DNA of 64,000 bases, from the NCBI RefSeq assembly GCF_036021035.1, contig NZ_CP107930.1, positions 1,860,001 to 1,924,000 on the forward strand, given 5' to 3'. This stretch comes from Kineococcus sp. NBC_00420 (GTDB lineage Bacteria > Actinomycetota > Actinomycetes > Actinomycetales > Kineococcaceae). Below, one piece after another: positions 2,612 through 48,314 of this stretch; within the stretch, counting starts at the first letter, position 1; each line of letters begins with the position of its first letter. The notes under the pieces were generated by a model that saw only the letters and a program-made list of their open reading frames with translations, ran no database searches and was not told the origin of the DNA. The translations under genes were made by a program, and so were the position numbers.

Positions 2612-4215
2612 TTCACCTGGTCCAGGGGCTGGTGGCTGACGGGTTCCTGGACCTCGTCGAGGCGGGCGACGGCCGCGTAGATCCCGCCCTCGCCGGACGG
2701 TCTCGGCGCCAGGACCTTCGCCTTCGGGTTGTTGTAGACGTCGGGTCCGAACGGTCGCAAGCCGTCCGCCCCGGCGTAGCCGAGGTGGCCCTGGCCGTCG
2801 GAACCGCCGCGGTCGACCTGGAACAGGTCCTCCATCGACCGCAGCCAGCTGTAGTGGTTGTACGGCTGGTCGGTCACCGACCCCGGGGTCACGTAGGGGC
2901 TGATGAGGACGGAACCGGTGATCCCGCCGCCGGGGGTGGTGTCCTGGTTGAACGCCCGGTCGCCGGGCTGGTCGGTGTTCGGGCCGGGCAGCTCGTTGCA
3001 GCAGGCGACGACGGACTGGGCGGTGTTCGCCTGGCTCTCGACGCTGCTGCCGTTGTTCGCAGCACTGGCCGCACCCGTCACGGTGCCCAGCCCCGCGTCG
3101 GGCGTGTAGTTCTTGTCCGCGATGGAGTTCCCGTAGACCTTGTAGGGCGGGAACCCCTCGTCGAAGGTGATGTCGATGAGCCCGCCGTCCTGGTAGGCGG
3201 GGCTGCGCATGATCGCCGGGACGACCTGTTCCAGGAACAGGTCAGCGGCGTACAGGCCGCCCTGGGTGTTGGCCGGGGTCTTGCGGTCGCCGGTCAGCAC
3301 GTTCGAGCCGCCGGAGAGGTTGTCCCCCTTGCAGGTGGCGTCGTGCGCGTCGCTGCAGTTGTCCGGACTGATCCAGGAGAAGGCGGGGGTGGTCTTCTCG
3401 CTCTTGAGGTCCGCCAGCAGGTTCTTCGCCAGCGGCACGACGTGCCGGGCGCAGTCGCCGTTGTCGAGCAGCGAGTGGAACCACGCGAAGGGGTTGTGCT
3501 TGGGGACGTACTGGTCGTCGACGGTGGTGCTCGGCGCGGCCAGGCTCCCCGGGGAGGCGTAGGGCCCCTCGGCGGCACCCGGGTCGACCACGGCGGGACC
3601 CGGACCCGGCAGCGGGTTGCCGCAGGTCGTCGCCTCGCGTGCGGGGTCGTTGCCCATGTCCTGCATGTAGCCCTTGTAGCTGACGTGCTGGGCGTCGAAC
3701 TGGTTGAACAACGTCTTGACCTGCCGGGGGAAGACGCAGCCCGGCTGGGTGGACCCGTCGTGGTAGGTGCCGTCCGGACGCTGGGTGTCGTCGAGGATCT
3801 TGAACTGCCCGTCCGCGACCTCCTGGACCGGGCCGGTCTCGTTGTAGTAGGGGCAGTCGGCCTGCGGACCCGGCGACGGCGCCTGACCGCTGACGAGCGA
3901 GAGGTAGTTGTCCTCGCTGAAGTGGCCGGTGCCGTAGTACTGGCGGGCGAGGACGCCGTAGGACGGGAGCGTCTTCCAGAGGTAGGAGTTCTGGTTCAGG
4001 CCGGTGAACGACGCCTCGTACGACTTGTTCTCGAGGACGATCGTCCACACGTGCTTGATCTTCGGCGGCGTCCAGGACGGGCCGGAGTGGGCCTGGGCGG
4101 CCGCGGTGCTGCCGGCGACGAGGAAGCCGGCGACGAGGACGACGATCGAGACGAACGCCGCGCTGGACCGGCGTCGAGGCCGGGTAGAACGTCCGGTGGG
4201 ATCCACGGGCCACAC
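2608..4215 (-). CDS. secreted phosphoesterase (phospholipase C / acid phosphatase family)
   Basis: Exported hydrolase of the phosphoesterase family that includes bacterial phospholipases C and AcpA-like acid phosphatases. After an Arg-rich n-region and hydrophobic core ending AAAQA, the mature protein opens with IKHVWTIVLENKSYEASF, the typical metal-binding start of the family. It later shows YYGTGHFSEDNYLSLVSGQ, TFDEGF and a C-terminal YNHYSWLRSMEDLF. I prefer the GTG at 4215 because AGGA sits 9 bases upstream and it leaves a normal-length signal peptide. GTG 4206 and an upstream start at 4329 are alternatives. The substrate (phospholipid or phosphomonoester) is unknown. Confidence 0.85.
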   Translation of the reverse strand: MWPVDPTGRSTRPRRRSSAAFVSIVVLVAGFLVAGSTAAAQAHSGPSWTPPKIKHVWTIVLENKSYEASFTGLNQNSYLWKTLPSYGVLARQYYGTGHFSEDNYLSLVSGQAPSPGPQADCPYYNETGPVQEVADGQFKILDDTQRPDGTYHDGSTQPGCVFPRQVKTLFNQFDAQHVSYKGYMQDMGNDPAREATTCGNPLPGPGPAVVDPGAAEGPYASPGSLAAPSTTVDDQYVPKHNPFAWFHSLLDNGDCARHVVPLAKNLLADLKSEKTTPAFSWISPDNCSDAHDATCKGDNLSGGSNVLTGDRKTPANTQGGLYAADLFLEQVVPAIMRSPAYQDGGLIDITFDEGFPPYKVYGNSIADKNYTPDAGLGTVTGAASAANNGSSVESQANTAQSVVACCNELPGPNTDQPGDRAFNQDTTPGGGITGSVLISPYVTPGSVTDQPYNHYSWLRSMEDLFQVDRGGSDGQGHLGYAGADGLRPFGPDVYNNPKAKVLAPRPSGEGGIYAAVARLDEVQEPVSHQPLDQVK

Positions 4216-4849: not shown

Positions 4850-5539
4850 TCACCGGGGGGTGGAGCCGGGTCCCGCCTGGTGCAGCAGCGCCGCGAACGC
4901 CCGGGGGTCCTCCAGCGGTCCCAGGTGACCCGTCGCCGTCGTGGTGAGCTCCGCCCCCGGGACGGCCGCCGCGATCGCCGTGTGGAACTCGGGCGGACAG
5001 AGGGCGTCGTGGATCCCGGAGACCACCCGGACGGGCACGGTGAGCGTCGGCAGGCGGCCGAGCAGGTCCTGTCGGCTGTCCTGCAGCGCCAGTTGACGAC
5101 GCAGCACCGCCGCTCCGACGGCGTCCGCCATCGCCAGGGTCCGTTCGACCAGGTCCGGGCGGGCGACCGCCGTGGACGGGGCGAGCAGCAGGGGCAGGAT
5201 CTCCTCCTGCAGGACGCGCGGCGGGACGCCCGCGTCCAGCCGCCGTCGCCACTCCCCCCACCCGCGGCGTTGCCCGTCCGTGGGCGCCCGGGCGTTCGTC
5301 GCCGTCAGCAGCAGCCCCGCGACGCGTTCGGGGGCGCGCAGGGCCAGGGCCGTCGCGACGACGGCCCCCAGGGACGAACCCCCCAGGAGGAAGCGCGGCG
5401 GCAGCGTGCGCAGCAGGTGCCCGACCTGCTCGTCCACGCTCTCCCGGTCCAGCGGCGGGGTGAGGGCGTCGTCCACCCCACACCCGCTCCACAGGTCCTC
5501 GGAGCAGTTCATCCCCGCCAGCAGCACCCAGCGCGTCAC
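4850..5539 (-). CDS. alpha/beta hydrolase
   Basis: 229-residue alpha/beta-hydrolase-fold protein. The nucleophile elbow is GGSSLG (Ser about 55), followed by a helix and APERVAGLLLTAT. The acid is probably in VVSGIHDALCPP and the catalytic His in TGHLGPLEDP. The N-terminus opens directly in a beta strand (VLLAGMNCSEDLW), with no export signal. The substrate is unknown. The GTG start lies only 16 bases after the stop of the 53-residue small ORF on the same strand, so the two are probably cotranscribed. Confidence 0.8.
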   Translation of the reverse strand: MTRWVLLAGMNCSEDLWSGCGVDDALTPPLDRESVDEQVGHLLRTLPPRFLLGGSSLGAVVATALALRAPERVAGLLLTATNARAPTDGQRRGWGEWRRRLDAGVPPRVLQEEILPLLLAPSTAVARPDLVERTLAMADAVGAAVLRRQLALQDSRQDLLGRLPTLTVPVRVVSGIHDALCPPEFHTAIAAAVPGAELTTTATGHLGPLEDPRAFAALLHQAGPGSTPR

Positions 5540-5555
5540 CCCACCGGCCCCCCGT

Positions 5556-5717
5556 TCAGCCCTCGACCGCCCCGTCGGTCGTGGTCGCCTCGTGGAGCTC
5601 CCGGGGCATCTCGGCGAAGCACGCGGAGTTCTCCGAGAGGTCGCTGGTGGTGGGCAGCGTGAGGTCGTTCATCCGGCCCGAGACCACGATGGCCGTGGCA
5701 GCGGTGTCGTCGGTCAT
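5556..5717 (-). CDS. small ORF, 53 residues, unknown
   Basis: Encodes a 53-residue acidic, Thr/Ser-rich peptide with one Cys (SDLSENSACFAEMP in the middle) and a Thr-rich tail. A GGAG stands 6 bases before its ATG at 5717. It sits 55 bases after the aldolase stop and 16 bases before the hydrolase start, all on the minus strand. I recognise no family. Leader-plus-short-core shape would fit a modified-peptide precursor, but no modifying enzyme is next to it, so this is speculation. It could equally be a small protein partner of the hydrolase. Confidence 0.5.
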   Translation of the reverse strand: MTDDTAATAIVVSGRMNDLTLPTTSDLSENSACFAEMPRELHEATTTDGAVEG

Positions 5718-5772
5718 CTGCGCTCCGGGGGAAGGGTTCCTGGTGACATCGGTCTGAACTCCGTTCCCGGCG

Positions 5773-6576
5773 TCAGGCGTGCGGGACGAGGAGTTCCGTG
5801 AGGTGCGCCATGAGGGCGTGCGCGAGGTTGTAGACCACGATCTGCGCACCGTCCTCGAACGCCGCCGACGCCCGCTGGGAACTCCCGACGATGTCCACCC
5901 GGAGTTTCCCGCCGGCCGCGACGGCCGCGTTGACCCGGGCGATCGCCGCGGGGACCGGCAGGTCGTCCGGACCGGTGGCCGCGGCGAGGTCGGCGGGTCC
6001 CACCATGATGCCGTCCAACCCCGGGGTCGCGACGATCTCCTCGACCGCACCGACCCCGGCGGGGGACTCGACCATGCCCAGGACCAGGGTGCGGCGCAAC
6101 AGGTCTGCCAGGTGCGTCCGGGCGTCCGTGGTGCCGAACCGCCCGGCCCGCCCGTACGTCGCGAAACCCCGCCGACCTACCGGTGGGTAGTGCGCGGCGG
6201 CGACCACCGCGGCCGCCTCGTCGGCGCTGTCGACGTGCGGGGCGAGGATGCCCTCGGCCCCCTGGTCGAGGACCCGCAGGACCATTCCCGGGTCGTCGCT
6301 GCCGACCCGCACCAGGACGGGAACCCCGTGCAGCGCGGCGCAGGCGATGTGCTGGCGCAGCGCCAGCACGTCGGCTGGGCCGTGCTCACAGTCGATCAGC
6401 ACGAAGTCGTGACCGGCCACGCAGACCATCTCCACGAGTTCCTCCGCGGGCATCCGCAGCAGCACCCCGAGCAGACGTTCGCCGGCCTGTGCGCGCTCGC
6501 GCAACGACGTGTCGGCGCGCTCGCGCAACGACGTGTCGGCGCGCTCGCGCAACGACGTGTCGCGCAGCGCCGCCAT
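5773..6576 (-). CDS. HpcH/HpaI-family class II aldolase
   Basis: Predicted metal-dependent aldolase cleaving 2-keto-3-deoxy sugar acids or related 4-hydroxy-2-oxo acids to pyruvate plus an aldehyde. Family marks are LIDCEHGP, GILAPHVDSADEA, the metal Glu in LGMVESPAGV and GLDGIMVGPADLA. Length is 267 residues against about 250 for the family. The excess is an N-terminal block of three perfect DTSLRERA repeats (residues 6-29). The ATG overlaps the SDR stop (TGATG). It is the last catabolic gene of the hisD-like/SDR/aldolase operon. Confidence 0.85.
   Translation of the reverse strand: MAALRDTSLRERADTSLRERADTSLRERAQAGERLLGVLLRMPAEELVEMVCVAGHDFVLIDCEHGPADVLALRQHIACAALHGVPVLVRVGSDDPGMVLRVLDQGAEGILAPHVDSADEAAAVVAAAHYPPVGRRGFATYGRAGRFGTTDARTHLADLLRRTLVLGMVESPAGVGAVEEIVATPGLDGIMVGPADLAAATGPDDLPVPAAIARVNAAVAAGGKLRVDIVGSSQRASAAFEDGAQIVVYNLAHALMAHLTELLVPHA
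6492..6562. repeat. three 24-bp tandem repeats inside the aldolase gene
   Basis: Three consecutive copies of a 24-bp unit (6492-6515, 6516-6539, 6540-6562; last copy one base short before divergence) encode DTSLRERA three times at the aldolase N-terminus. The copies are identical at base level, so the expansion is recent and in frame. Confidence 0.9.
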
Positions 6577-7343: not shown

Positions 7344-8665
7344 GGCGTCCCCGTCCCGACCGCGAGCGCGTCCTCGATCCAGTCGAAGCGGCGGCCGGTG
7401 TGCTTCCAGGCCCGGACGTCGCCGGAGCGGGCGTGTCCCTCGAAGAGCTCCACCCGCGCGGCACGGCCGCAGACCTCCCCCAGCCGGGCCGAGGACGCTG
7501 GGTCGCTGATCTCCTGGTAGGTGACCGTGCGCAGGTACTTGCCGACCCACAGACCTCCCGTGTAGCGGGCCGCGCCCAGCGTGGGCAGTACGTGGTTGGT
7601 GCCGATCACCTTGTCGCCGTAGGAGACGCAGGTGTTCTCCCCGAGGAACAGCGCGCCGTAGTCGTGCATCTTCACCAGCGCCTCGCGCGGTGCGCGGGTG
7701 AAGACCTGCACGTGCTCGAAGGCGAAGGAGTCCGCCAGCGCATACGCCTCGTCGAGGTCGTCCACCACCAGCACCTGACCCCAGTCGCGCCAGGCCGGTC
7801 CTGCGTAGTCGGCGGTCGGCAGGCCGGGCAGCAGCCGTTCGACGTGCTCGAGCACCCGCTCGCCCAGCGCGCGCGAGGTGGTGATGAGCACCGCGGGCGA
7901 CTCGGGACCGTGCTCGGCCTGCGAGAGCAGGTCGACCGCGACGAGGAAGGGGTCGGCGGAGTCGTCGGCGACGACGAGGATCTCGGTGGGTCCGGCGAAC
8001 AGGTCGATGCCGACCTCCCCGAACAGCTGCCGCTTCGCCTCGGCGACGTAGGCGTTGCCGGGACCGGCCAGGAGGTTCACCGGGGCGATGCTCTCCGTGC
8101 CCAGGGCCATGGCCGCGATCGCCTGCACCCCACCGAGGACGTGGATCTCGTCGGCCCCGGCGAGTTTCATGGCCGCGACGGTGGCGGCCGGGACCTCACC
8201 CCGGATGGGTGGGGTGCAGGCCACGACGCGGGGCACGCCCGCCACCTTGGCGGTGACGATCGTCATGTGCGCGGACGCCGTCAGCGGGTACTTCCCCCCG
8301 GGGACGTAGGCGCCGACCGCCTGCACGGGCACGTGCTTCTGTCCGAGCCGCACTCCGGGCAGGGTCTCGACCTCGAGGTCGACGAGGGAGTCGCGCTGGG
8401 CCTGGGCGAAGGTGCGCACCTGGTCCTGGACGAACCGGATGTCCTCGATCACCTGGGGGTCGAGGCCGGCCACGATCTCCTCGACCTGGTCGTCGTCGAG
8501 CCGGGAGGGTCGCGTCCAGCCGTCGAACTGCTCGGCGTAGCGGCGGACCGCGTCGTCGCCCTCGCGACGGACAGCGGCGACGATCGTCCCCACCCGCTCG
8601 GCGACGTCGGCCTGGGCCGTGTCCGCGAAGGACTTCGTGGGGGCGCTCTTGAGCTGCAGGGGCAT
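7340..8665 (-). CDS. histidinol-dehydrogenase-like (HisD/HpsN family) dehydrogenase
   Basis: 441-residue NAD-dependent zinc dehydrogenase of the HisD superfamily. Marks are LAGPGNAYVAEAKRQLFG, Zn ligands in SQAEHGPES, the catalytic pair in FEHVQV and GTNHVLPT. The catabolic setting (LacI regulator, aldolase, SDR, no his genes) argues against histidine synthesis and for a degradative paralogue such as sulfopropanediol 3-dehydrogenase (HpsN). The exact substrate is unknown. The ATG at 8665 is preceded by GAGGG. It is the first gene of the minus operon, divergent from lacI, with two operator-like motifs between. A second paralogue lies at 13113. Confidence 0.85.
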   Translation of the reverse strand: MPLQLKSAPTKSFADTAQADVAERVGTIVAAVRREGDDAVRRYAEQFDGWTRPSRLDDDQVEEIVAGLDPQVIEDIRFVQDQVRTFAQAQRDSLVDLEVETLPGVRLGQKHVPVQAVGAYVPGGKYPLTASAHMTIVTAKVAGVPRVVACTPPIRGEVPAATVAAMKLAGADEIHVLGGVQAIAAMALGTESIAPVNLLAGPGNAYVAEAKRQLFGEVGIDLFAGPTEILVVADDSADPFLVAVDLLSQAEHGPESPAVLITTSRALGERVLEHVERLLPGLPTADYAGPAWRDWGQVLVVDDLDEAYALADSFAFEHVQVFTRAPREALVKMHDYGALFLGENTCVSYGDKVIGTNHVLPTLGAARYTGGLWVGKYLRTVTYQEISDPASSARLGEVCGRAARVELFEGHARSGDVRAWKHTGRRFDWIEDALAVGTGTP

Positions 8666-8702
8666 CGTCGGACCCTCGTTCCGTCGTGGTGTGCAGGGGT
8701 TT

Positions 8703-8737
8703 GCGTATACGTATGCTCGAACTGCGTCTACGTATAC
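8703..8737. promoter_or_regulatory. paired operator-like sites between hisD-like gene and lacI
   Basis: Two related 14-mers, GCGTATACGTATGC (8703-8716) and GCGTCTACGTATAC (8724-8737), start 21 bp apart, two helical turns. Read on the minus strand the first is GCATACGTATACGC, which matches 13 of 14 bases of the site at 9836-9849. The TACGTA cores have the central CG typical of LacI-family operators, so the adjacent LacI regulator is the likely binder. Confidence 0.65.
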
Positions 8738-8799
8738 CGGACCGAGGCACCCGTCGGCTAGACTCCAGCGGTCGCAGCGGGTCGCGGAAGGGTTCACCC

Positions 8800-9795
8800 A
8801 TGGCAGTCACGAGCCGCGACGTCGCCCGTGTGGCCGGCGTCTCCCAGCCCACGGTCTCCCGGGCCCTGCGGGACGACCCCCGGCTCTCGAACGCCACGAA
8901 GCAGCGCGTCCGCGAGGCCGCCCAACTGCTCGGGTACGTGCTCAGCGACGCCGGCCGGGCCCTGTCCTCCGGGCGCACCCGGCGCATCGGGTTGCTCGTC
9001 ACCGACCTGAACAACGAGTTCTACCACCACATCATCGCGCCGGTGCACCACGAACTCGAGAGCCGCGGGTACCAGCTCCTGCTGCACACCGAGTCCGACG
9101 ACAACGGGAGCGTGGTGGACCGCCTGCTGGCGAACGGGATGGACGGGGTCGTCCTGGCCACGACCACGATCGACTCCACCGCCCCCCTGCGGTTGCGCGA
9201 CCGGGGGCTGCCGTTCGTCTACCTCAACCGCACCAGCACCCAGGTCGACGCCGACGCCACGGTCGTGGATCCCGTGCCGGGCTTCACGGCTGCCGTCCGC
9301 CGCGCGGTCGAGTTCGGCCACCGCCGGGTGGGCGCCGTGCTCGGACCGACCAACACCAGCACGGGACAGAGCCGGGAACTCGCGCTGCGCTCGGCCCTGG
9401 CCGACCACGGCCTGCCCCTGGAAACGCGGTACGTGCGCCGCGGCCCCTACGACACCGCCGTCGGCGACGCCGCGGTGAGCGAACTGCTGGAACTGCCCGA
9501 ACCTCCCACGCTGATCTTCTGCGGCAACGACGTGGTCGCCTACGGCGCCCTCAACGCCGCCGGCCGCACCGGCGTGCACGTCCCCCGGGAGGTCTCGATC
9601 GTGGGTTTCGACGACCTCCCGCCCGCCGCCTGGCCGATCGTGCAGCTCTCGACCATCGCCTACGACTTCGAGCAGATGGCCCGCGAGGCGGCCCGGCTCG
9701 CCGTGCGCCGCATCGAGGATCCAGGAGCCCCCCTGTCCCACACCACGTTCACCACCACCTTCGTCGAGCGCGGAACCCTCGGAACCACGGGCTGA
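8800..9795 (+). CDS. LacI-family transcriptional regulator
   Basis: 331-residue repressor. The N-terminal helix-turn-helix is SRDVARVAGVSQPTVSRALRD, followed by the hinge helix LSSGRTRRIGLLV and a periplasmic-binding-protein-like sensor domain with VSIVGFDDLP. The ATG at 8800 has GGAAGGG about 9 bases upstream; the frame is open earlier but without a ribosome site. It sits between the two arms of the catabolic locus, and near-identical operator-like motifs precede the hisD-like gene and the SnoaL-like gene. It therefore probably controls both and itself. The effector is likely the substrate or an intermediate. Confidence 0.92.
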   Translation: MAVTSRDVARVAGVSQPTVSRALRDDPRLSNATKQRVREAAQLLGYVLSDAGRALSSGRTRRIGLLVTDLNNEFYHHIIAPVHHELESRGYQLLLHTESDDNGSVVDRLLANGMDGVVLATTTIDSTAPLRLRDRGLPFVYLNRTSTQVDADATVVDPVPGFTAAVRRAVEFGHRRVGAVLGPTNTSTGQSRELALRSALADHGLPLETRYVRRGPYDTAVGDAAVSELLELPEPPTLIFCGNDVVAYGALNAAGRTGVHVPREVSIVGFDDLPPAAWPIVQLSTIAYDFEQMAREAARLAVRRIEDPGAPLSHTTFTTTFVERGTLGTTG

Positions 9796-33435: not shown

Positions 33436-34263
33436 TCACACCCCGCCGGCGTCGTCGAGCAGGGGGTCCCACCGGCCCTGAACGACGGCCTCGGCGAGTT
33501 CGTGGACCGTTCGGCCGGTGACGAAGGCGACGGCCTGCAACCGGCTCACGATTTCGTCGACCTGAACCCCGTGCCGTTGCCGGAGGACCCCGAGAGCCGT
33601 CGACACGGTGTCGGGACGCAGGTACGGGACCGTCTCCCCGGCCGCCGACGACCCGCTCGCGGTGGGCGGGGCCGTGCGCGTCAGCAGCAACGCCAGCAGG
33701 AGGTCGGCGAGGCGGGTGAGGACGAACTCGTCCTGGCGGTCGAAGGCCCGCGGCAGGTCGCGGGCGACGGTCAGGACCCCCACCGTGCCCGTTCCGGGGG
33801 AGGCGACGGGCAGCGCCGCGAGGGAACGGAAGGACGCCCACCGCCCGAGACCCGCGAGGTAGGGCCAGCGCCCGTGCTGCGAGGCGAGATCGGCGACGAG
33901 CACGGGGCGTCCGGTCCGGAGCGCCTCGACCTCGGGTCCCTCCTGGACCGAGTGCTGCTGGTCGACGAACAGGACGAGCCCCGGGTCGGAGCCCGCCAGC
34001 GGAGCGACCGGCACGCCGGCCGAGACCAGGCTGACGGCGGCACGGTCGAAGGGCACGACGCGGGCGGTCTCGAGGCACAACGCGAGCTCGGGCGAGGTCT
34101 CCGAGAGCCGCGGCGGCCGCGGGTCATCACCGGGCGAGGGGCGACCGCCCAGGCGTCCGGCCAGCTGCCGGTTGGCCCACCGCAGCCGCTCGTCGGTCCG
34201 TCGGGCTCGGGCCATCACCTGGGCCGCCTGGCCCAGCACCTCGCGGGAGGACGCGGCGCTCAT
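33436..34263 (-). CDS. GAF-ANTAR domain regulator
   Basis: 275 residues. A GAF sensor domain (about 55-190; FDRAAVSLVSAGVPVAPLAG, FRSLAALPVAS, TVGVLTVARD) is followed by an ANTAR RNA-binding domain (about 215-265; ALGVLRQRHGVQVDEIVSRL). ANTAR proteins prevent termination at paired hairpins in target leaders. It is 26 bases upstream of the CheB start on the same strand, so it may be part of that signalling unit. The ATG is 6 bases after CACGAT, a weak -10. Confidence 0.85.
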   Translation of the reverse strand: MSAASSREVLGQAAQVMARARRTDERLRWANRQLAGRLGGRPSPGDDPRPPRLSETSPELALCLETARVVPFDRAAVSLVSAGVPVAPLAGSDPGLVLFVDQQHSVQEGPEVEALRTGRPVLVADLASQHGRWPYLAGLGRWASFRSLAALPVASPGTGTVGVLTVARDLPRAFDRQDEFVLTRLADLLLALLLTRTAPPTASGSSAAGETVPYLRPDTVSTALGVLRQRHGVQVDEIVSRLQAVAFVTGRTVHELAEAVVQGRWDPLLDDAGGV

Positions 34264-34990: not shown

Positions 34991-35884
34991 TCACGGCGTC
35001 GGCATGCCGCCGTTGACGTTGATCACCGCACCCACGACGTAGCTGGACTCCGCGGAGGCCAGGAACACGTACGCGGGGGCGACCTCGGCGGGCTGACCCG
35101 CGCGACCGAGCGGCGTCGACGTGCCGAACTCCGGCATCGCGTCGTCCGGCTGCCCGCCCGCGATCTGCAGCGGCGTCCAGACCGGGCCCGGTGCGACCAC
35201 GTTGACGCGGATGCCCTTGGGGGCGAGCTGCTGGGCCAGGGCCTGCGACATGGCGATGATCCCCGACTTGGTCGTCGCGTAGTCGACGAGGTTCGGGGAG
35301 GGCTGGTAACCCTGCACCGAGGCGGTGTTGATGATCGTGGACCCCGGCGGCAGGTGCGGGACGGCCTCCTGCACGATCCAGAAGAGCGAGTTCAAGTTCG
35401 TGCGCATCGTCTCCTCGAACTGATGCGACGTGAGGTCGGCGATCTCCTCGACGTGCTGCTGCTTGCCGGCGACGTTGGCGACGAGGTCGATGCCACCCAG
35501 CTCGCGCACCGTCGTGGCGACGAGGCCACGGGCGAACTGCTCGTCGACCAGGTCGCCGGGGGCCAGCACGGCCTTGCGCCCGGCCTCGGTCACGAGTTTC
35601 GCGACCTCCTCGGCGTCGACCTGCTCCTCCGGCAGGTAGTTGAGGACGACGTCGGCACCTTCGCGCGCGAAGGCGATCGCCGCGGCCCGCCCGATGCCGG
35701 AGTCCGCCCCGGTCACCAGGGCCTTGCGACCCGACAGCCGACCGGTCCCCCGGTACGTCGACTCCCCGTGGTCGGGTTTCGGGGACTGCTCGGCGGCGAG
35801 TCCCGGGCCGTCCTGCGGCTGGGGGTCGAAACCGCCCTGGTGGTAACGGGTCACGGGGTCACTGAAGGTGTACTGGTCGGTCAT
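34991..35884 (-). CDS. stress-type SDR oxidoreductase (YghA/YdaD-like)
   Basis: 297 residues. The N-terminus carries the family's extra segment (YTFSDPVTRYHQGGFDPQPQ, then GLAAEQSPKPDHGESTYRG), followed by the Rossmann fold TGADSGIGRA, the Ser site in NTASVQGY, YATTKSG and a Gly-rich INVNGG end. Such proteins are general-stress-induced aldehyde/alcohol reductases of unknown physiological substrate. ATG 35884 is used; the frame extends upstream without a better site. It converges on the TRIC gene with a 6-bp hairpin (GTGACC/GGTCAC, 34960-34980) between. Confidence 0.85.
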   Translation of the reverse strand: MTDQYTFSDPVTRYHQGGFDPQPQDGPGLAAEQSPKPDHGESTYRGTGRLSGRKALVTGADSGIGRAAAIAFAREGADVVLNYLPEEQVDAEEVAKLVTEAGRKAVLAPGDLVDEQFARGLVATTVRELGGIDLVANVAGKQQHVEEIADLTSHQFEETMRTNLNSLFWIVQEAVPHLPPGSTIINTASVQGYQPSPNLVDYATTKSGIIAMSQALAQQLAPKGIRVNVVAPGPVWTPLQIAGGQPDDAMPEFGTSTPLGRAGQPAEVAPAYVFLASAESSYVVGAVINVNGGMPTP

Positions 35885-35978
35885 GGGTTCCACGGTAGGC
35901 AGGACGGAGGAACCCCGCTCGCCGGGTCGCACGGCCCGTCGGCGTGCGACCGGGGCGGGGGAACCTCACGCTGGTGGC

Positions 35979-37662: not shown

Positions 37663-39795
<2,133 letters not shown>

Positions 39796-40055: not shown

Positions 40056-40844
40056 ATGGAACCACCCACCGCGACGGTGGTCGATGATCCCGCTGTCGAC
40101 CAGCTGGTGCTGACGCACCTGAGCCTGGCGAGGTCGCTCGCTGCGCACTACCGCAACCGCGGCGAGCCCTACGACGACCTGGTTCAGGTCGCGAGCCTCG
40201 CGCTGGTCAAGGCGGCGCAGCGCTACGACCCCACCACCGGCTACCGGTTCGCCTCCTACGCCACCCCCACGATCATCGGCGAGATCCGCCGCCACTTCCG
40301 CGACCACGGGTGGTTCGTCCGCCCCCCGCGCAGTCTGCAGGAACTGCGGTTGCGCCTGCAGGCCGAGGAGGCCGGCCCGGACGAGGTCCTCGCCGCCCGC
40401 CTGGGAGCCAGCGTGGCCGACGTCAGGGCCGCACGGGAGGCCTCCAACGCCTACTCCGCCGTACCCCTCGACGCTTCCTGGGACTCCGACGACGCACCGC
40501 TGACCGAGCTTCTCGCCGACGGTTCCGACGACGTCGCCACCGTCGACGACCTCCTCTCCCTGCGCCGCATCGCAGCGGACCTCGACGACCGGGACCGCCG
40601 GATCCTGCACCTGCGCTTCTACGAGGACGCCACGCAGTCTGAGATCGCGGCTGAACTCGGGGTCAGTCAGATGCAGGTCTCGCGGCTGCTGAACACCTTG
40701 TTCCGACGGATGCGCGCTCTCCTCGAGGATCAGGTACCCGTCCGCGAACTCACCGCCGAACGAGGGCGGAGCGGCCCCGTGGCCACCCCTGCGTGGTCGC
40801 GCATGCCGTCGAGGAGTTCGGTCAGCACGTCCCGGGCGGCGTGA
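40056..40844 (+). CDS. RNA polymerase sigma factor, SigB/SigF/SigG type
   Basis: 262 residues. Region 2: LVQVASLALVKAAQRYDPTT and YRFASYATPTIIGEIRRHFRD. Region 3 is between about 100 and 135, and region 4 is DATQSEIAAELGVSQMQVSRLL. This is the group-3 general-stress/sporulation class. GGAGG lies upstream of the ATG. No anti-sigma gene is adjacent. It diverges from katE, which it may control. Its last 38 codons (40730-40844) lie over the 3' end of the convergent epimerase gene; that tail is Arg/Ser-rich and may not be needed. Confidence 0.9.
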   Translation: MEPPTATVVDDPAVDQLVLTHLSLARSLAAHYRNRGEPYDDLVQVASLALVKAAQRYDPTTGYRFASYATPTIIGEIRRHFRDHGWFVRPPRSLQELRLRLQAEEAGPDEVLAARLGASVADVRAAREASNAYSAVPLDASWDSDDAPLTELLADGSDDVATVDDLLSLRRIAADLDDRDRRILHLRFYEDATQSEIAAELGVSQMQVSRLLNTLFRRMRALLEDQVPVRELTAERGRSGPVATPAWSRMPSRSSVSTSRAA

Positions 40845-41943: not shown

Positions 41944-42828
41944 ATGCCCCTGATGCGTTCCCTGTTCGACGCTCCCTCGCGGTGGACGGTCCTCGACCCG
42001 GTGGCCGCACGGGCCAAGGACACCGCCGACCGTCTGCTGCCCGGTGGTTCGCTGCGAGGTCTGCTGCACGGCCGCCCGGCGGGCCATCCCGTCCACCCGG
42101 CGATGGCGATGGTCCCCGTGGGCACCTCCGTCTCGGCGTTCGTCCTCGACGCCGCCGCGGTGCTGCTCCCGGGAGGGCAGGCTCTGGGCGCCCCCGCGCG
42201 GCTGCTCGCTGCCGCGAGCGTCGCCACCGTCGCGCCGACCGCTGTCGCCGGCTGGGCCGACTACGTCGACCTGCACCCCGACCAGCAGCGCACCGCGATC
42301 GTGCACGCGGCGGGCAACGCGGTCGCGGCCACGCTGTGGACGGCGTCGTTGTTCGCCGGTCGACGGGCCCGGCTGCTGCGGACCGCAGGAACCCTGGCCG
42401 CCGGGGCGGCCGGAGCCCTGGGCGGCCACCTGGCCTACCGCTGGTCGGCGGGAGTGAACCACGCCGAGCACCTGGTCCACCTGGCCGGCGACGGGCAGGA
42501 GTTCTCCGACATCGGGACGCTCGACGACCTGGCCGAGGGCCGTCCGGAGCAGCGGTGGATCGGGGACGCGCCGTTGTGCGTCCTGCGCCGAGGCGGTTCC
42601 GTCATGGCCCTCACCGACACCTGCACCCACCTCGGCGCCCCGTTGCACGACGGCGAGGTCACGGGGACGGGTTCCGCGACGACCATCACCTGCCCCTGGC
42701 ACGCGAGCGAGTTCCGCTTCGCCGACGGTGAGGTGGTCGACGGTCCGGCCACCGCTCCGCAGCCGGTCGTCGAGACCCGGGTGGAGGCGGGGCGCGTCAT
42801 GGCGCGCGTCGTCGGACCGCCCCTCTGA
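41944..42828 (+). CDS. DUF2231 membrane domain fused to Rieske [2Fe-2S] domain
   Basis: 294 residues. Residues about 45-165 form a four-helix DUF2231 membrane domain (PAGHPVHPAMAMVPVGTSV, ADYVDLH). Residues about 190-290 are a Rieske ferredoxin with cluster ligands CTHLGAPL and CPWHASEF. This suggests a membrane-bound electron-transfer protein. No ribosome site is clear; TAGGAC stands 6 bases before the ATG, possibly leaderless. Followed 32 bases later by a zinc alcohol dehydrogenase, which may share redox duty. Confidence 0.88.
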   Translation: MPLMRSLFDAPSRWTVLDPVAARAKDTADRLLPGGSLRGLLHGRPAGHPVHPAMAMVPVGTSVSAFVLDAAAVLLPGGQALGAPARLLAAASVATVAPTAVAGWADYVDLHPDQQRTAIVHAAGNAVAATLWTASLFAGRRARLLRTAGTLAAGAAGALGGHLAYRWSAGVNHAEHLVHLAGDGQEFSDIGTLDDLAEGRPEQRWIGDAPLCVLRRGGSVMALTDTCTHLGAPLHDGEVTGTGSATTITCPWHASEFRFADGEVVDGPATAPQPVVETRVEAGRVMARVVGPPL

Positions 42829-42860: not shown

Positions 42861-44069
42861 GTGCGAGCACTGACGTGGCAGGGGAAGCGTTCGGTCAGCG
42901 TCGAGGACGTACCGGACCCGCAGGTCGTCGAGCCGACGGACGCGGTCGTGCGGATCACCTCGACGGCGATCTGCGGTTCCGACCTGCACCTCTACGAGGT
43001 CCTGGCCCCCTACATGGCCAAGGGTGACGTCCTGGGTCACGAGCCGATGGGCATCGTCGAAGCGGTGGGGTCCGCCGTCACGAACCTGAGCCCGGGCGAC
43101 CGGGTCGTCATCCCGTTCAACATCTCCTGCGGCCACTGCTTCATGTGCGACCGCGGGTTGATGTCGCAGTGCGAGACCACCCAGGTGCGGGAGAAGGGCT
43201 CTGGGGCGGCCCTCTTCGGGTTCAGCTCCCTCTACGGCTCCGTCCCCGGCGGCCAGGCGCAGTACCTGCGCGTCCCGCACGCCGACTTCGGCCCGATCAA
43301 GGTCGGCCGGGAGGGCGACAACGGACTTCCGGACGAGCGGTACCTGTTCCTCTCCGACATCCTCCCCACCGCCTGGCAGGGCGTGCAGTACGCCGACGTC
43401 CCCGAGGGCGGCACCCTCGCGGTGCTGGGCCTGGGGCCGGTCGGTCAGTTCGCGGCCCGCATCGGCCGACACCTCGGGTACGAGGTCATCGCCGTGGACC
43501 CGGTCGAGGAACGTCGCCAGATGGCCCACCGCAACGGGGTGACGGCGATCGACTTCACCGACGGCAGCGGTTCCGACGTCGTCACGCAGCTGCGTGAACG
43601 CACCGACGGCCGCGGCCCGGACGCCGTCCTCGACGCCGTCGGCATGGAGGCTCACGGCGGGACGGAGGGGGCCGTGGCCAAGGCGGCCCAGACCGCCGTC
43701 GGTCTGCTGCCGGACAAGCTCGCCCAGAAGGTCATGGAGACCGGCGGGATCGACCGGTTGTGGGCCGTGCGGACGGCCGTCGACGCCGTCCGTCGCGGGG
43801 GCACCGTGTCGTTGTCGGGCGTCTACGGCGGCGAGGCGGACCCGATGCCGATGATGACGATGTTCGACAAGCAGCTGCAGTTCCGCATGGGCCAGTGCAA
43901 CGTGAAGAGCTGGATCGAGGACCTGCTGCCCATCGTGGAGGACCCGACCGACCCGCTCGGCATCGACGACCTCACCACTCACCGGGTCCCGCTCGAAGAC
44001 GCCCCGGACGCGTACGAGATGTTCCAGACCAAGCGTGACGGGTGCATCAAGGTCGTCCTCAAACCCTGA
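42861..44069 (+). CDS. zinc-dependent alcohol dehydrogenase (formaldehyde-dehydrogenase-like)
   Basis: 402 residues. The catalytic zinc ligands are in TAICGSDLH and LGHEPMG. The structural zinc site is complete (CGHCFMCDRGLMSQC). The NAD motif is VLGLGPVGQFAARIG. The long insert and total length recall glutathione-independent formaldehyde dehydrogenases. GTG start with GGAGAAGGAG upstream. A gap of about 140 bases to the next gene contains no feature; its base composition looks like a decayed gene end but no start exists. Confidence 0.87.
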   Translation: MRALTWQGKRSVSVEDVPDPQVVEPTDAVVRITSTAICGSDLHLYEVLAPYMAKGDVLGHEPMGIVEAVGSAVTNLSPGDRVVIPFNISCGHCFMCDRGLMSQCETTQVREKGSGAALFGFSSLYGSVPGGQAQYLRVPHADFGPIKVGREGDNGLPDERYLFLSDILPTAWQGVQYADVPEGGTLAVLGLGPVGQFAARIGRHLGYEVIAVDPVEERRQMAHRNGVTAIDFTDGSGSDVVTQLRERTDGRGPDAVLDAVGMEAHGGTEGAVAKAAQTAVGLLPDKLAQKVMETGGIDRLWAVRTAVDAVRRGGTVSLSGVYGGEADPMPMMTMFDKQLQFRMGQCNVKSWIEDLLPIVEDPTDPLGIDDLTTHRVPLEDAPDAYEMFQTKRDGCIKVVLKP

Positions 44070-44208: not shown

Positions 44209-44883
44209 TCAGGCGCTGAGGTCGTGGGCGACACCGGCGGGGGTCCGTCCCAGGAGCCGGTCGCTGGTGAGGACGGGGTGCGCGGTGGAACTCAGGACGT
44301 TCGCCCCCGGCAACGCCCGGACCCGGTCGACGAACTCCCGGTCCTCGTGCGCCGGCCGGGACGGGAACCCACCGGCGGCCCGGTACGTCGAGGCGCGCAC
44401 GCCGAGGTTCGCGCCGTGCACGTGGCGGTGGCCCGCGGCGCAGGTGCCTGCGGCGTACCGTCTCCGCCACTCGGTGTGGAGCGTGGCGGGCCCTGCGAGT
44501 CGGACGGTTCCGAGCAGCAGGTCGATCCCCGCGTCGCCCGCGCGCCGGTGGTGCGGCAACCACTGCCCGGGCACGACCGAGTCCGCGTCGGTGCAGGCGA
44601 TCCAGGTCGAACGGAGTTCCCGGGCCGAGCGGCCCGCGAGCGCCTCGTCGACTCCCGCGGCCCGGGCCGCACCGACGTTGCCGGCCCGGGAGCGGATCAC
44701 GTGAGCGCCTGCGGCGACCGCGGTCTCGGCGGTCGCGTCGCGGCAGAGGTCCGCCACGACGACGAGGTCGACGGGGATCCCGAGACGGCCGGCCGAAAGG
44801 AGGACCGAGGTGACGGCAGCGGCGATCGTCGTCTCCTCGTCGCGGGCGGGCACGACGACGACCATCCGCTCGAGGGCGGTCAC
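44209..44883 (-). CDS. family-2 glycosyltransferase
   Basis: 224 residues. The GT-A fold start is MVVVVPARDEETTIAAAVTS; the metal/nucleotide motif is CTDADSVVP. An acceptor region GANLGVRASTYRAAGGFP and HEDREFVDRV resembles the ED motif of GT2 enzymes. No membrane helices, so it is cytosolic. The ATG overlaps the stop of the PIG-L/methyltransferase gene (ATGA), making it the last gene of a three-gene cassette. Sugar donor and acceptor are unknown. Confidence 0.85.
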   Translation of the reverse strand: MTALERMVVVVPARDEETTIAAAVTSVLLSAGRLGIPVDLVVVADLCRDATAETAVAAGAHVIRSRAGNVGAARAAGVDEALAGRSARELRSTWIACTDADSVVPGQWLPHHRRAGDAGIDLLLGTVRLAGPATLHTEWRRRYAAGTCAAGHRHVHGANLGVRASTYRAAGGFPSRPAHEDREFVDRVRALPGANVLSSTAHPVLTSDRLLGRTPAGVAHDLSA

Positions 44884-46277
44884 GGGGTCAGTCCACCGGC
44901 CCGGGCGACGGAGGTCGCGGGGGGTCGGACGAGGACGTCGAGCAGGAAGTCCTCCTCCTCGTGGTGGGCGAGGACGGTGAGTTCCGGGGTGGCGCGCAGC
45001 ACGCGGTGGACCTCGTCGCCGGTCAGCGGGTAACCCTGGACGAGGTGTCGCCAGTGGCAGGCGACGAGCACCCCGTCCGCGCTCAACGCGGCCGTGGCGC
45101 GGGCGAGGAGGTCGGCGAGGTCGGCCGGTCCGCAGTAGTAGGCGACCTCGGACAGGACGACGAGGTCGAACTCCCCGGCGGGGAACTCCTGCGGGACCCG
45201 GGCCACCCTGGTCTCGACGGTGTCACCGAAACCCGCGGCGGTGACGCGGTCCCGGGCCTGCCGGACGGCGGACGCAGCGATGTCGAGGGCGAGGAGCCGG
45301 TCGCACCGGGCGGCGAGGTCGACGCTGAAGACCCCTGCGCTGCAGCCGATCTCGAGGACGGACGTGAACCTCCGCCGGGGCAGCACCGCAGCGGTGAGGG
45401 CACGTTTGCGCTGCTCGTACCAGCGGTCCTCGAAACCCCAGGGGTCGTCGCCGTTCTCGGTGTAGAAGCCGTCGAAGAACTCCACGCCGAGGCTCCCGGT
45501 GCGTTCCTGCCCGTCGGGGACCAGGAAGACCTCGACGTCCCGGTCGAAGTGCTGCTGGACGGCGGGCGGCAGCAGGACCTCGTCCCCCGGGAGTTCGGAC
45601 AACGGTCGTGTCTGCGAGACGTGCTCGGCGAGGGCGGCGCCCTTCTGCCCGCGGGCGACGGGGTCGAGGTCGAGGCGGACACCGGCCGTCCACGGGATCC
45701 GGTGGTCACCGGGGTGCGCCCAGTGCCACGCCCACACCGGGTACTGCAGGCAGCGGACGCCGGCGGTGACGGCCAGTTCCGCGCAGACCAGGCCGGCGGT
45801 GTCGTGGTCGGGGTGGGCGTCCCCGGACCACGGGCTGATCAGCAGGGTTCCGGGCCGGAGCAGGTGGTGCACCGCGTCGCGCACGCGAGCGGGGGCTGCC
45901 GTCAGCGTCCCGTCGGGGATCTGCGCCCGGTGCACCCGGGCGTCCGGCGCGGTCAGGGCGACGGCGCGGGCGACCTCCACGGCACGGACCTCGGCGAGGC
46001 GGTCGGGGGTCGTGGTGGACGACGCGGGGTGCGACGCCTCGCCGTCGGTGAGGACCAGGACGTCCAGGGGCAGGCCGCGGGCGGCGGCGGTGGCGAGGAG
46101 CCCGCCGGCGCCGAGGGTCTCGTCGTCGGGGTGGGCGGCGACGACGAGCACGTGCGCGACGCCGTCCCAGGACAACCGCGGGAGGTCGCGCAGGCCGGGC
46201 CACGCCAGCCAGTCCGCTTCGGGTGTCCCGTCGCCGTCGTGGGTGAACTCGACGGGTCCCTCGTTCACGACGGCCAT
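44880..46277 (-). CDS. PIG-L deacetylase / SAM methyltransferase fusion
   Basis: 465 residues. Residues about 40-230 are a PIG-L (LmbE) deacetylase with zinc motif VVAAHPDDE and the matching HPDHD further on. Residues about 265-440 are a class I methyltransferase with motif I FTSVLEIGCSAGVFSVDLA and FDLVVLSEVAYY, of the NodS type. N-deacetylation of a glycoside followed by methylation is the likely logic. It overlaps the acyl-CoA-dehydrogenase-like gene by 13 bases and the glycosyltransferase by 4. Confidence 0.88.
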   Translation of the reverse strand: MAVVNEGPVEFTHDGDGTPEADWLAWPGLRDLPRLSWDGVAHVLVVAAHPDDETLGAGGLLATAAARGLPLDVLVLTDGEASHPASSTTTPDRLAEVRAVEVARAVALTAPDARVHRAQIPDGTLTAAPARVRDAVHHLLRPGTLLISPWSGDAHPDHDTAGLVCAELAVTAGVRCLQYPVWAWHWAHPGDHRIPWTAGVRLDLDPVARGQKGAALAEHVSQTRPLSELPGDEVLLPPAVQQHFDRDVEVFLVPDGQERTGSLGVEFFDGFYTENGDDPWGFEDRWYEQRKRALTAAVLPRRRFTSVLEIGCSAGVFSVDLAARCDRLLALDIAASAVRQARDRVTAAGFGDTVETRVARVPQEFPAGEFDLVVLSEVAYYCGPADLADLLARATAALSADGVLVACHWRHLVQGYPLTGDEVHRVLRATPELTVLAHHEEEDFLLDVLVRPPATSVARAGGLTP

Positions 46278-47257
46278 GCCGTCCCCTCCTCGGTCTCCTG
46301 GTCTGCTGTCTCGCCGGGTTCTTCGTCGGGTTCCTCGAGCATCTCGCCGAGGGCGGCGACGTCGCGTTCGGCGTGGTCCTGGCGCAGGTACACGGTGAGG
46401 TCGGCGACCCGGGCCGCGTGGGCGGCATCGAAGGTCAGCGGCGCCGGCCCGAGGGCGTGACCCACGGTCCGCAGGACGTCCTCGGCCGCTTCCGCGACGA
46501 TCGCGCGGGTCCGCGCGGCCAGCACCTCACCGGCCCGTCCGGTGGCCCTTCCGGCGTCGACGTCGACGGCGGCCGCCTCGAGCGCCAGCCGGGCGTTGCG
46601 CAGCCGCAGGTCGACGATCCCACGGTGGTACCGGGCGAGCTGGTCGTCCCGGGTCCCGTGCCGCAGGGCGCGGGCGACGCCCACGGCACCCCCGAACCAG
46701 CAGGCCGCGACCCCGATGCCGCCGTGGGCGAAACCGGGTCGCCGCAGGTACCAGCCGGCCTCACCGACGGGCTCGGCGGGTGCGCAGTGCAGGTGCACGG
46801 GTCCGCTGGGGACCTCGACGAGACCCCGGCTGTGCCAGGCGCCGGCCTCGACCTCGACGGCCCCGCTCTCCCGGCCCGCCGCGAGGTCGACGGCGAACAG
46901 CCGGCGACCGGACGGCGTGTGGGCGGTGACGAGGGCGTGGGAGAGGTCGCCGGCGAGCGAGCACCAGGGTTTGGTGCCCTCCAGGACCCACCGCCCCGCC
47001 GCGGTGCGGGCGTCCAGCCGGACGGTGCCCGACTCGGCGGCGAAGACCCCCCAGGTGCTTCCCGGGGGAAGGGCCTGCCCGGCTTCGGCCAGGATGGCGA
47101 CCGCGTCGAGGTGGGCCTCGAGGATCCGGGCCGTCGTCAGGTCCTCCGCGGCCGACGCGGCGAGGAACCGCCAGCGACGCAACGTGTCGCCGGATCCGGG
47201 CAGCGGCACGGTCGCCGAGGAACTGCTCGCCACGGCGAGCGCCTGCTGGATGGGCAC
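46265..47257 (-). CDS. acyl-CoA dehydrogenase-like flavoprotein
   Basis: 330 residues, short for the family (about 380). FAD/substrate region WVLEGTKPWCSLAGDLSHAL, then GLVEVPSGPVHLHCAPAEPVG and a C-terminal helical domain containing GTRDDQLARYHRGIVDLRL and RTVGHALGPAPL. The catalytic Glu is not obvious. The acidic tail (EEPDEEPGETADQETEEG) overlaps the next gene. GGAGG precedes the GTG/ATG start. First gene of the cassette with PIG-L/methyltransferase and GT2. Confidence 0.8.
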   Translation of the reverse strand: MPIQQALAVASSSSATVPLPGSGDTLRRWRFLAASAAEDLTTARILEAHLDAVAILAEAGQALPPGSTWGVFAAESGTVRLDARTAAGRWVLEGTKPWCSLAGDLSHALVTAHTPSGRRLFAVDLAAGRESGAVEVEAGAWHSRGLVEVPSGPVHLHCAPAEPVGEAGWYLRRPGFAHGGIGVAACWFGGAVGVARALRHGTRDDQLARYHRGIVDLRLRNARLALEAAAVDVDAGRATGRAGEVLAARTRAIVAEAAEDVLRTVGHALGPAPLTFDAAHAARVADLTVYLRQDHAERDVAALGEMLEEPDEEPGETADQETEEGTAWPS

Positions 47258-47320: not shown

Positions 47321-48058
47321 TCAGACCTGCCCGGCGCGTCGGAGCACACCGTCCACCGGGTCCAGGTCGTCGACGATCTCCTGGGCGACGTCGCGCAGTC
47401 GCCGTCGCTCGGCCCGGGCCCGGGCCCGGAGCCGCTGGAACGCCTCGTCGGGGTGGCAGCGGTAGCGCTCCGCGAGCGCACCCTTGGCCTGTTCCAGCAC
47501 GATCCGGCTGTCGAGGGCCTCCTGCAGCTGGGCCCGCACCCGCGCCCCTTCGGCGACGTGCTCGAGCTGAGTGAGGCCGATGGCCCCGAACGAGGCCATC
47601 GCGTGGGCGACGTCGGACTCGACCGCCGAGTAGGGACCCTCGTGGTCGCGGAAGAGGTTCAGGGCCCCGATGGTCCGACCGCCGCTCCCGACCGGAACGC
47701 TGTGGACCGCCATCACCCCGGCCTCGCGGGCGCTGCGGGCGAACTCGGGCCAGCGGGCGGTGAGCTCGGCCGCGGTGGGGACCGAGACGACCTGCCCCGT
47801 GCGGTAGGCGTCCAGGCAGGGGCCCTGGCCCGTCTGCAGCTGCACGACTTCGACGCCGCGGACGTCGTCGGACGTGGCGGCCAGCGGTTGCAGGTGCCCG
47901 TCGCCGTCCTCGACGACCAGACCGACCGCGCTGGCCGACAGCAGCCGGGCGCAGTGGTGCACGAGGCGGTGGGCGAGGTCCAGCGCCTCACCGTGGTCGG
48001 CGAGCACCTGGGCGACGTCGTTGACCGCCGCGGCGACCGCATCGGCGCGTACGTCCAC
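47321..48058 (-). CDS. GAF-ANTAR domain regulator
   Basis: 245 residues. GAF domain with VQLQTGQGPCLDAYRTGQVV and GALNLFRDHEGPY, then a canonical ANTAR domain LDSRIVLEQAKGALAERY and RRLRDVAQEIVDDL. GTG 48058 is chosen because GGAGGA is 6 bases upstream; the frame runs further but without a site. It would act as an RNA-binding antiterminator under a GAF-sensed signal. Encoded just upstream of the acyl-CoA-dehydrogenase-like cassette on the same strand, 63 bases from it. Confidence 0.9.
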   Translation of the reverse strand: MDVRADAVAAAVNDVAQVLADHGEALDLAHRLVHHCARLLSASAVGLVVEDGDGHLQPLAATSDDVRGVEVVQLQTGQGPCLDAYRTGQVVSVPTAAELTARWPEFARSAREAGVMAVHSVPVGSGGRTIGALNLFRDHEGPYSAVESDVAHAMASFGAIGLTQLEHVAEGARVRAQLQEALDSRIVLEQAKGALAERYRCHPDEAFQRLRARARAERRRLRDVAQEIVDDLDPVDGVLRRAGQV

Positions 48059-48314
48059 GCCAGTCCTCCACGAAGCCGGCGTTCTGCCGGCTGGTCGTCC
48101 CGCCACACCTCGTCGGCACGCCCCGGGCTGCACGTGCCCGTCCATTCTTCACGACCACGCGTCCTGGGCGACACCGGGTCCGGGTGGTGATCACGAGGCT
48201 ACGATCACCGGGGTCCCGCGACGAGGACCGCCACGACCACCACGCACGACGGGGCAGGCGCAACGATGACGCGGATCCAGCGCACGGTCACCTCCGAGGG
48301 ACGGGTCTCCTGAC

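Follow-up and report, generated by a model that had tools for sequence, protein, structure and literature searches.

A compact gene cassette containing a PIG-L deacetylase–methyltransferase fusion in Kineococcus, its conservation in several bacterial phyla and a possible role in N-methylated amino-sugar synthesis

The gene set in the Kineococcus window

The subject of this report is a run of three minus-strand genes in a stretch of 64,000 nucleotides from Kineococcus sp. NBC_00420 (contig NZ_CP107930.1, positions 1,860,001 to 1,924,000), hereafter the window, which is part of a 5.43 Mb single-contig genome. An earlier reading of the letters and their open reading frames (ORFs), here called the sequence-only reading, had described these genes as overlapping by 13 and 4 bases, which the ORF coordinates confirm (Table 1). 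The first gene encodes a flavoprotein-like protein of 330 residues with the fold of the acyl-CoA dehydrogenases (ACAD), and its match to the Pfam ACAD middle domain stands at 23.4 bits, under the cut-off of 33.3. The second encodes a protein of 465 residues in which a PIG-L deacetylase (PF02585, 76.9 bits against a cut-off of 28.2) is joined to a S-adenosylmethionine (SAM) methyltransferase of the NodS family (PF05401, 51.3 bits against a gathering score of 24). The third encodes a family 2 glycosyltransferase (GT2) of 224 residues (PF00535, 41 bits against 23.3). The description of the middle gene as a zinc deacetylase with an HPDDE motif fused to a methyltransferase, with a GT2 next to it, is thus upheld by Pfam matches above the cut-offs.

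The PIG-L zinc motif, which we take to be HPDD ... HxxH, is present in the fusion, and both HPDDE and HxDH are invariant in all 15 sequences of the fusion alignment, which was drawn from 32 fused sequences. The AlphaFold 2 (AF2) model of the fusion has a predicted local distance difference test score (pLDDT) of 89.8 and a predicted template modelling score of 0.67, with the relative orientation of the two domains unsure. The nearest solved relative of the methyltransferase domain is PDB 4ISC (E 1e-42; 46% identity in Foldseek), followed among structural matches by NodS (3ofk), and its score against the NodS equivalog NF041650 is 58 bits, under the cut-off of 300. In the GT2 the DxD motif is found as D99-A100-D101, which together with E180-D181 is invariant in all 30 aligned sequences (the window, 24 of 72 genome loci and 5 plasmid loci).

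The closest relatives of the fusion in the searched set come from Kineococcus species, and identity to the other Kineococcus loci is 71% for the ACAD-fold protein, 62–65% for the fusion and 53–62% for the GT2. Sequence comparison confirms that the gene set stands above chance, given this 53–71% identity within the genus and its retention across phyla. The sequence-only reading had also pointed to a GAF-ANTAR regulator just upstream. Such a gene is indeed present upstream, 63 bp away and on the same strand, but an ANTAR relative was found in only one of 80 homologous loci (L044, 30% identity; tblastn, with up to 6 kb of flank per side). The regulator is therefore apparently outside the unit, and we rejected it as a cassette member. 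A second GAF-ANTAR-like gene, with its ANTAR part under the cut-off, is present in the window at 33436-34263 on the minus strand.

Co-conservation of the four domains

A scan of genome contigs for the fusion confirmed 87 relatives, and 80 loci were kept. Three of the four PIG-L genes of the window's own genome (L001, L002 and L004) were excluded from the counts, the fourth being that of the window (L003), and two PIG-L genes without a cassette (L064 and L084) were retained among the 80 as misses. By domain profiles, ACAD, PIG-L, methyltransferase and GT2 follow one another in that order and on one strand in 70 of the 80 loci; L044 has all four domains with the GT2 inverted, so that 71 carry the full set. 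The ACAD gene is missing in four loci (L011, L019, L051 and L063) and the GT2 in two (L016 and L045), and in all of these the stored stretch stops where the gene would be. In L064 and L084 there is PIG-L only. The 80 loci come from Actinomycetota, Xanthomonadales and one Pseudomonas, together with single contigs of metagenome-assembled genomes (MAGs) labelled Spirochaetaceae, Myxococcales and Dormibacterota. The gene set is therefore strongly co-conserved; the sequence-only reading had named a failure of co-conservation as evidence that would count against it, and this is not what the search returned. In two Nocardioides loci (L022 and L023) a second, separate PIG-L gene lies near the cassette at 3377-4138 on the opposite strand.

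Of the 80 loci, 31 (L005-L035) have PIG-L and methyltransferase fused, 46 have them as split neighbouring genes, and 3 lack one of the two domains. In a quick tree of 115 methyltransferases with long branches (33 fused, 62 split, 17 from the NodB form described below and 3 uncounted), the fused state needs two changes, and a single origin is also compatible. From these sequences the fusion appears to have been derived, in actinobacteria, from neighbouring genes, and its two halves would likely act one after the other.

Plasmids carry the cassette as well. In a tblastn search of plasmids, 34 records had ACAD relatives and 68 had relatives of the fusion; best represented were Acinetobacter (19 in each case) and, for the fusion, also Sulfitobacter (13) and Deinococcus (7). 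Eight plasmid regions were read, and in seven of them ACAD, PIG-L and methyltransferase adjoin. A glycosyltransferase is annotated after the methyltransferase, on either strand, in six of the eight, and the GT2 profile matches in seven; since the GT2 alignment already contains five of the eight plasmid GT2s, the profile recovers those by construction. Longer GT2s of about 296-393 residues lie on the opposite strand in Deinococcus (L085, 9307-10488), Bradyrhizobium (L087, 9499-10389) and Komagataeibacter (L089, 9288-10388). The cassette is thus widely conserved on both chromosomes and plasmids, and the finding of the sequence-only reading is real and wider than that reading had it: a compact four-gene cassette present in several phyla, of which the fusion is a derived form that it had missed.

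Clustering of the ORFs of the 80 loci and the window found no further gene family in the flanks at a similar rate. ORF groups 3-14 and 16-19 overlap the cassette genes and are by position probable shadow ORFs, and the other additional groups reach only 4-6 genera. This bears on two other accounts of the product. One is that the product is an envelope amino sugar in place of a soluble small molecule, the cassette modifying a glycan that is lipid-linked or on the cell surface. Envelope glycans are frequent substrates of GT2, NodB-type and PIG-L enzymes, and the GT2 weakly matches NCBIfam models for GT2s of the polyprenyl-phosphate and exopolysaccharide kinds, but the clustered flanks have no recurrent transporter, flippase or polymerase, and the proteins are short, with no signal peptide or membrane part evident by eye (no predictor was run). 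We consider this account unlikely. The other is a route to a low-molecular-weight thiol or redox cofactor of the mycothiol or bacillithiol kind, with PIG-L at the MshB/BshB step. The PIG-L domain does resemble BshB1 (TIGR04001, 56.7 bits) and MshB (TIGR03445, 22.5 bits), and the setting of the locus includes redox genes. However, these scores fall far under the cut-offs of 182.5 and 224.35, no Cys ligase recurs in the clustered flanks, and the four PIG-L genes of the genome leave room for a separate MshB, all of which makes a thiol route very improbable.

Replacement of the deacetylase

The cassette was also approached from its first gene. A profile of the ACAD family run over 296 actinobacterial genomes matched 151 of them at E 0.001, many weakly, and the 31 strongest places outside the window's genome, all at E 1.3e-18 or better, were extracted together with their flanks. 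The methyltransferase is present in 29 of the 31 (exceptions L108 and L117), a deacetylase in 29 (exceptions L116 and L117) and the GT2 in 27 (exceptions L108 and L117, with L118 and L120 at contig ends). Gene order is shuffled in L109, L113, L114, L115 and L116, which argues that the linkage is more than inherited order. Five weaker ACAD places, L136-L140, which include the paralogue in the window genome, served as controls and have no partner genes, the sole exception being a weak methyltransferase match (9e-5) in L139. Beside the shuffled cassette of L116 a frame at 7533-9782 resembles, by eye, a DNA photolyase.

The deacetylase is of the PIG-L kind in 11 of the 31 loci. In 18 others (L118-L135) there is no PIG-L match in the extracted stretch, and a relative of the L119 deacetylase precedes the ACAD gene. 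The two such proteins that were scanned, from L119 and L124, are polysaccharide deacetylases (PF01522; 86.1 bits against 23.1 for L119), and among NCBIfam models the L119 protein scores best with NodB (TIGR04243), at 122.8 bits and under the equivalog cut-off of 240. The order in this NodB form is NodB-type deacetylase, ACAD, methyltransferase, Pyr_redox_2 and GT2, with Pyr_redox_2 in 17 of the 18 loci and GT2 in 16, the gaps lying at contig ends (L118 and L120). The Pyr_redox_2 gene is like those of flavin-dependent reductases, and its best matches are ferredoxin reductases. When the genes of four loci were used as queries, those of the block were found in 16-18 of the 18 NodB-form loci against at most 12 for flank genes, and the flank genes of L124 and L131 were found in no other NodB-form locus. 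Thus, the block persists while its surroundings change.

Since an unrelated deacetylase fills the place of PIG-L, deacetylation, probably of an N-acetyl sugar, looks like a required step, and the swap is the strongest evidence for this. Together with the membership of the methyltransferase in the NodS family, the exchange in 18 of 31 loci makes the deacetylation and methylation of an N-acetyl sugar conjugate, as the sequence-only reading had proposed, the best interpretation of these two activities.

The ACAD-fold protein

The AF2 model of the first protein of the cassette has a pLDDT of 93.1, and its fold is that of the ACAD family (VIA Z 29.9 to 4kto, root mean square deviation 2.3, 296 residues aligned). 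Dehydrogenases and monooxygenases are tied in the VIA comparison at Z 28-30, and the fold does not separate them. An alignment of 42 of the 75 ACAD sequences revealed, among others, the invariant residues E47, H49, D51, S100, W141, R173, W187, R251, Q293, H295 and D299.

By HMMER the region of D286 in the family aligns with the RD motif of 2dvl, and the catalytic glutamate of the dehydrogenases (position of Glu376 in medium-chain acyl-CoA dehydrogenase) presumably lies eight residues after the Asp of that motif. The corresponding position 294 is His in 25 sequences, Ser in 8, Asp in 3, Cys in 3, Trp in 2 and Gly in 1, and Glu in none of the 42; in the window it is Asp. The alternative base of the ACAD family, which we take to be at the position of Glu254 in isovaleryl-CoA dehydrogenase, maps by eye to Gly179, a glycine in 42 of 42. 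Judged from this alignment, the family is without both canonical acyl-CoA dehydrogenase bases. The suspicion in the sequence-only reading that the catalytic Glu is lacking was therefore justified, and its suggestion of a flavoprotein modifying an acyl part is not supported. A divergent enzyme that dehydrogenates an acyl group would fit the fold, the Asp at 294 in the window and a Glu297 that is present in 32 of 42 sequences (Asp in 5) and could conceivably substitute as the base. Against it stand the rarity of Asp at 294 and the two vacant base positions, as well as the clustered flanks, in which no acyltransferase or CoA ligase recurs, and we regard such an enzyme as improbable.

Another possibility is a two-component flavin monooxygenase of the DszC/KijD3 group, which would N- or S-oxygenate the product. 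The best PDB matches of the family profile are 5gj7/5z8t (1.3e-12), followed by TdsC (4.2e-9) and only then by the dehydrogenase 2dvl (1e-8), 5z8t being titled a flavin-containing monooxygenase and 5gj7 a putative acyl-CoA dehydrogenase. In a small set it also scores two DszC-like proteins (2.8e-16 and 9.9e-11) above the dehydrogenase-type protein L096 of the window genome (8.3e-6), and the NodB form of the cassette brings the Pyr_redox_2 gene. Conversely, the window sequence alone finds 2dvl as its best PDB match, 2dvl is also first in Foldseek, and at E 0.1 Pfam ACAD_1 matches 14 of the 42 members against 2 for ACAD_2. The tie in VIA scores and the affinity of the Pyr_redox_2 gene to ferredoxin reductases likewise speak against it.

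The active-site residues add a further element. Taking the catalytic residues of DszC/TdsC to be His92, Ser163, Trp205 and His391, we considered whether the cassette protein keeps them, an idea that was dropped as only S100 and W141 remain as counterparts. TdsC His89, taken as the counterpart of DszC His92, falls at a non-conserved site, and the invariant His49 aligns with TdsC His94. When the ends of the fold match are used to place DszC His391 by eye, it falls on the invariant Gln293, with the invariant His295 two residues on; by eye, the DszC histidines are apparently not kept. A W-C-S stretch matches F-C-S of TdsC, and all 42 sequences have an aromatic residue at position 98 and Ser at position 100. 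According to passages in the respective papers, Thr146 of XiaF contacts the flavin N5 (PMC5481743) and the C-terminal His391 of DszC assists formation of the C4a-OOH (PMC11134501); in our own reading XiaF Thr146 corresponds to Ser100.

On balance the chances of a monooxygenase are a little short of even, and such an enzyme is compatible with the pathway proposed below. Given the conflict between dehydrogenase and monooxygenase evidence, we label the protein a flavoprotein-like enzyme and not a canonical acyl-CoA dehydrogenase, and leave its chemistry unassigned.

Genomic setting and a possible link to stress

Within 8 kb of the cassette lie a long catalase, which is the only Catalase_C match of the genome, a sigma factor, a Rieske protein and an alcohol dehydrogenase (Table 1), a setting that the sequence-only reading had passed over. 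An SDR (short-chain dehydrogenase/reductase) oxidoreductase at 34991-35932 (PRK06128, 448.9 bits, cut-off 481; PRK07985, 424.2 bits, cut-off 538) is of a kind presumably found among general-stress proteins.

Table 1. Cassette genes and neighbouring features, in window coordinates
Feature	Position	Strand	Basis
ACAD-fold gene	46265..47257	-	ORF, Pfam, alignment, AF2, fold matches
PIG-L (about aa 1-255) + NodS-family SAM methyltransferase (about aa 256-465)	44880..46277	-	Pfam/NCBIfam
GT2 (224 aa)	44209..44883	-	Pfam, alignment
GAF-ANTAR regulator, not counted as cassette part	47321..48145	-	Pfam, tblastn
Long catalase (HPII/KatE type), context	37663..39795	-	Pfam, NCBIfam HPII 894 bits (cut-off 1102)
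SigB/SigF/SigG-type sigma factor, context	40056..40844	+	TIGR02980 203.3 bits (cut-off 234.35)
Rieske protein with DUF2231-like part (under cut-off), context	41944..42828	+	Pfam
Zinc alcohol dehydrogenase, context	42861..44069	+	Pfam

Relatives of these neighbours were sought in the 80 fusion-anchored loci, the 31 ACAD-anchored loci and 20 hand-picked control regions (18 genomes with an ACAD-anchored locus and two generic-ACAD control genomes), which are too few to give a rate. Rieske relatives occur in 3 of the 80 at 1e-10 and 2 at 1e-15, and relatives of the alcohol dehydrogenase (46-67% identity) in 5 of the 80, none of the 31 and one of the 20 controls. The controls gave two sigma-factor matches and one epimerase match, and these two markers are no commoner near cassettes (0/80 for either; 2/31 and 1/31, respectively). 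A catalase is annotated in three of the eight plasmid regions, where other neighbours are otsAB with DUF421, Ku/LigD, GlgE and CsbD. On an Acinetobacter ursingii plasmid (L086) a Haem_oxygenas_2 protein (4851-6257) and a catalase beside the cassette recall the DtpC-KatE pair; a passage on that pair states that losing both greatly cuts desiccation tolerance, and its authors mention small-molecule synthesis as one possibility (PMC13232832).

In Acinetobacter baumannii, the parts consulted of a study of two colistin-dependent mutants list ACICU_02432-02435 as one operon of glycosyltransferase, SAM-methyltransferase, LmbE (PIG-L) and acyl-CoA-dehydrogenase-related genes, which falls about 31- to 62-fold in the mutants, with the trehalose genes otsAB falling 12- to 50-fold (PMC5660220). 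The same four gene names appear near the photoreceptor gene blsA of this species in a passage of another paper (PMC6240043). A BLUF photoreceptor gene is found about 6 kb from the cassette on the Bradyrhizobium plasmid (L087, 633-1064). The stress neighbours and the one transcriptome suggest that the product of the cassette probably serves in stress survival, be it desiccation, osmotic or oxidative.

A proposed pathway

Our best explanation of the whole is that the conserved cassette specifies the synthesis of an N-methylated amino sugar in the cytosol, by chemistry like that of Nod factors and for use under stress, and we lean towards it by a modest degree. The GT2 would join an N-acetyl-hexosamine to a cytosolic acceptor. 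The zinc deacetylase, PIG-L in most lineages and NodB-type in one, would then free the amine, which the NodS-family methyltransferase, to judge from its family and structure, may N-methylate; the fusion would couple these two steps. The ACAD-fold protein, presumably with bound flavin, might oxidise the amino sugar or the aglycone in a flavin-dependent reaction at its own distinct active site. A bolder version, which we put forward only tentatively, is that at least three phyla carry the genes for an undescribed N-methyl amino-sugar protectant, that PIG-L and NodB-type deacetylases are interchangeable in making it, and that the ACAD-fold flavoenzyme finishes it with a new active site (E-H-D, Q-H-D). 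Isolates place the cassette in at least three phyla (Actinomycetota, Pseudomonadota and Deinococcota), to which the single MAG contigs may be added.

Several points weigh against this proposal. Some cassettes are incomplete: ACAD is directly followed by the methyltransferase in L039, with no PIG-L profile match on its 4.5 kb, and in the Cupriavidus plasmid region (L091), where a PIG-L that the cassette profile does not match is annotated about 3 kb away on the other strand; L088 is without a GT2 match; L108 has only ACAD and PIG-L, L116 is without a deacetylase and L117 has ACAD alone. The NodB form is a single clade, falling on one side of a branch of the methyltransferase tree with SH-aLRT 98, and the swap therefore counts as one event. 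PIG-L enzymes also act on non-sugar amides, and the methyltransferase might O- or C-methylate instead. The best curated matches of the GT2 (TIGR04283, 39 bits, and glucosyl-3-phosphoglycerate synthase, 38.3 bits) are far under their cut-offs and do not identify its donor or acceptor. The stress neighbours vary, KatE relatives being found in 5 of the 80 and 1 of the 31 loci as against none of the 20 controls, and the RNA data for Acinetobacter were obtained with colistin-dependent mutants and are not a stress test. Lastly, the titles, abstract openings and passages of the open-licence PMC papers searched assign no product to the cassette, so that within this search the other refuting evidence named by the sequence-only reading, homologues of the fusion with an assigned product, did not turn up. 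PMC6181384, PMC10325922, PMC7083833 and PMC9239045 contain none of the terms sought, the matches in PMC7143919 and PMC13130816 were unrelated, and PMC9832474 had nothing on the residues in question. The sequence-only reading is supported in part.

If the amino-sugar route is correct, one metabolite would explain a gene set, currently annotated as generic enzymes, that turns up repeatedly in Kineococcus, Curtobacterium, Nocardioides, Deinococcus, xanthomonads, Acinetobacter and other bacteria, and the way in which a possible stress-protective amino sugar is made could be tested. Because of the deacetylase swap, the substrate is also open to a direct test, in that PIG-L and NodB-type enzymes should act on the same compound.

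Relationship to known systems

The mycothiol and bacillithiol pathways (MshA/MshB and BshA/BshB) follow a logic of glycosyltransferase plus PIG-L deacetylase, with a glycosyltransferase of the GT4 family. The cassette shares this pairing and differs in having a GT2 and a methyltransferase, in deacetylase scores far under those of MshB and BshB, and in flanks without a recurrent Cys ligase. A close relative of the methyltransferase domain, PDB 4ISC, is a putative methyltransferase of Pseudomonas syringae whose title gives no function. The Acinetobacter genes ACICU_02432-02435 are four consecutive genes of the same kinds, likened here by gene names and not by sequence and named in the source in a table or genome description only; unlike in the window, PIG-L and methyltransferase are separate genes there (PMC5660220). 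DszC, TdsC, XiaF, KijD3 and DnmZ share the ACAD fold, and TdsC also the W/F-C-S stretch, whereas the cassette protein is shorter and has other invariant residues.

The head group of rhizobial Nod factors is made by NodB, NodS and NodC. The cassette likewise combines a deacetylase, a NodS-family methyltransferase and a GT2, with NodB as the best match of the L119 deacetylase and a methyltransferase that passes the Pfam NodS threshold. It departs from the Nod enzymes in scoring under the NodB and NodS equivalog cut-offs, in the PIG-L deacetylase of the window, in its short GT2, in the addition of the ACAD-fold protein and in its occurrence far outside rhizobia. If the proposed route is right, chemistry of the Nod-factor type, in which an amine is freed by deacetylation and then methylated, would extend beyond symbiosis.

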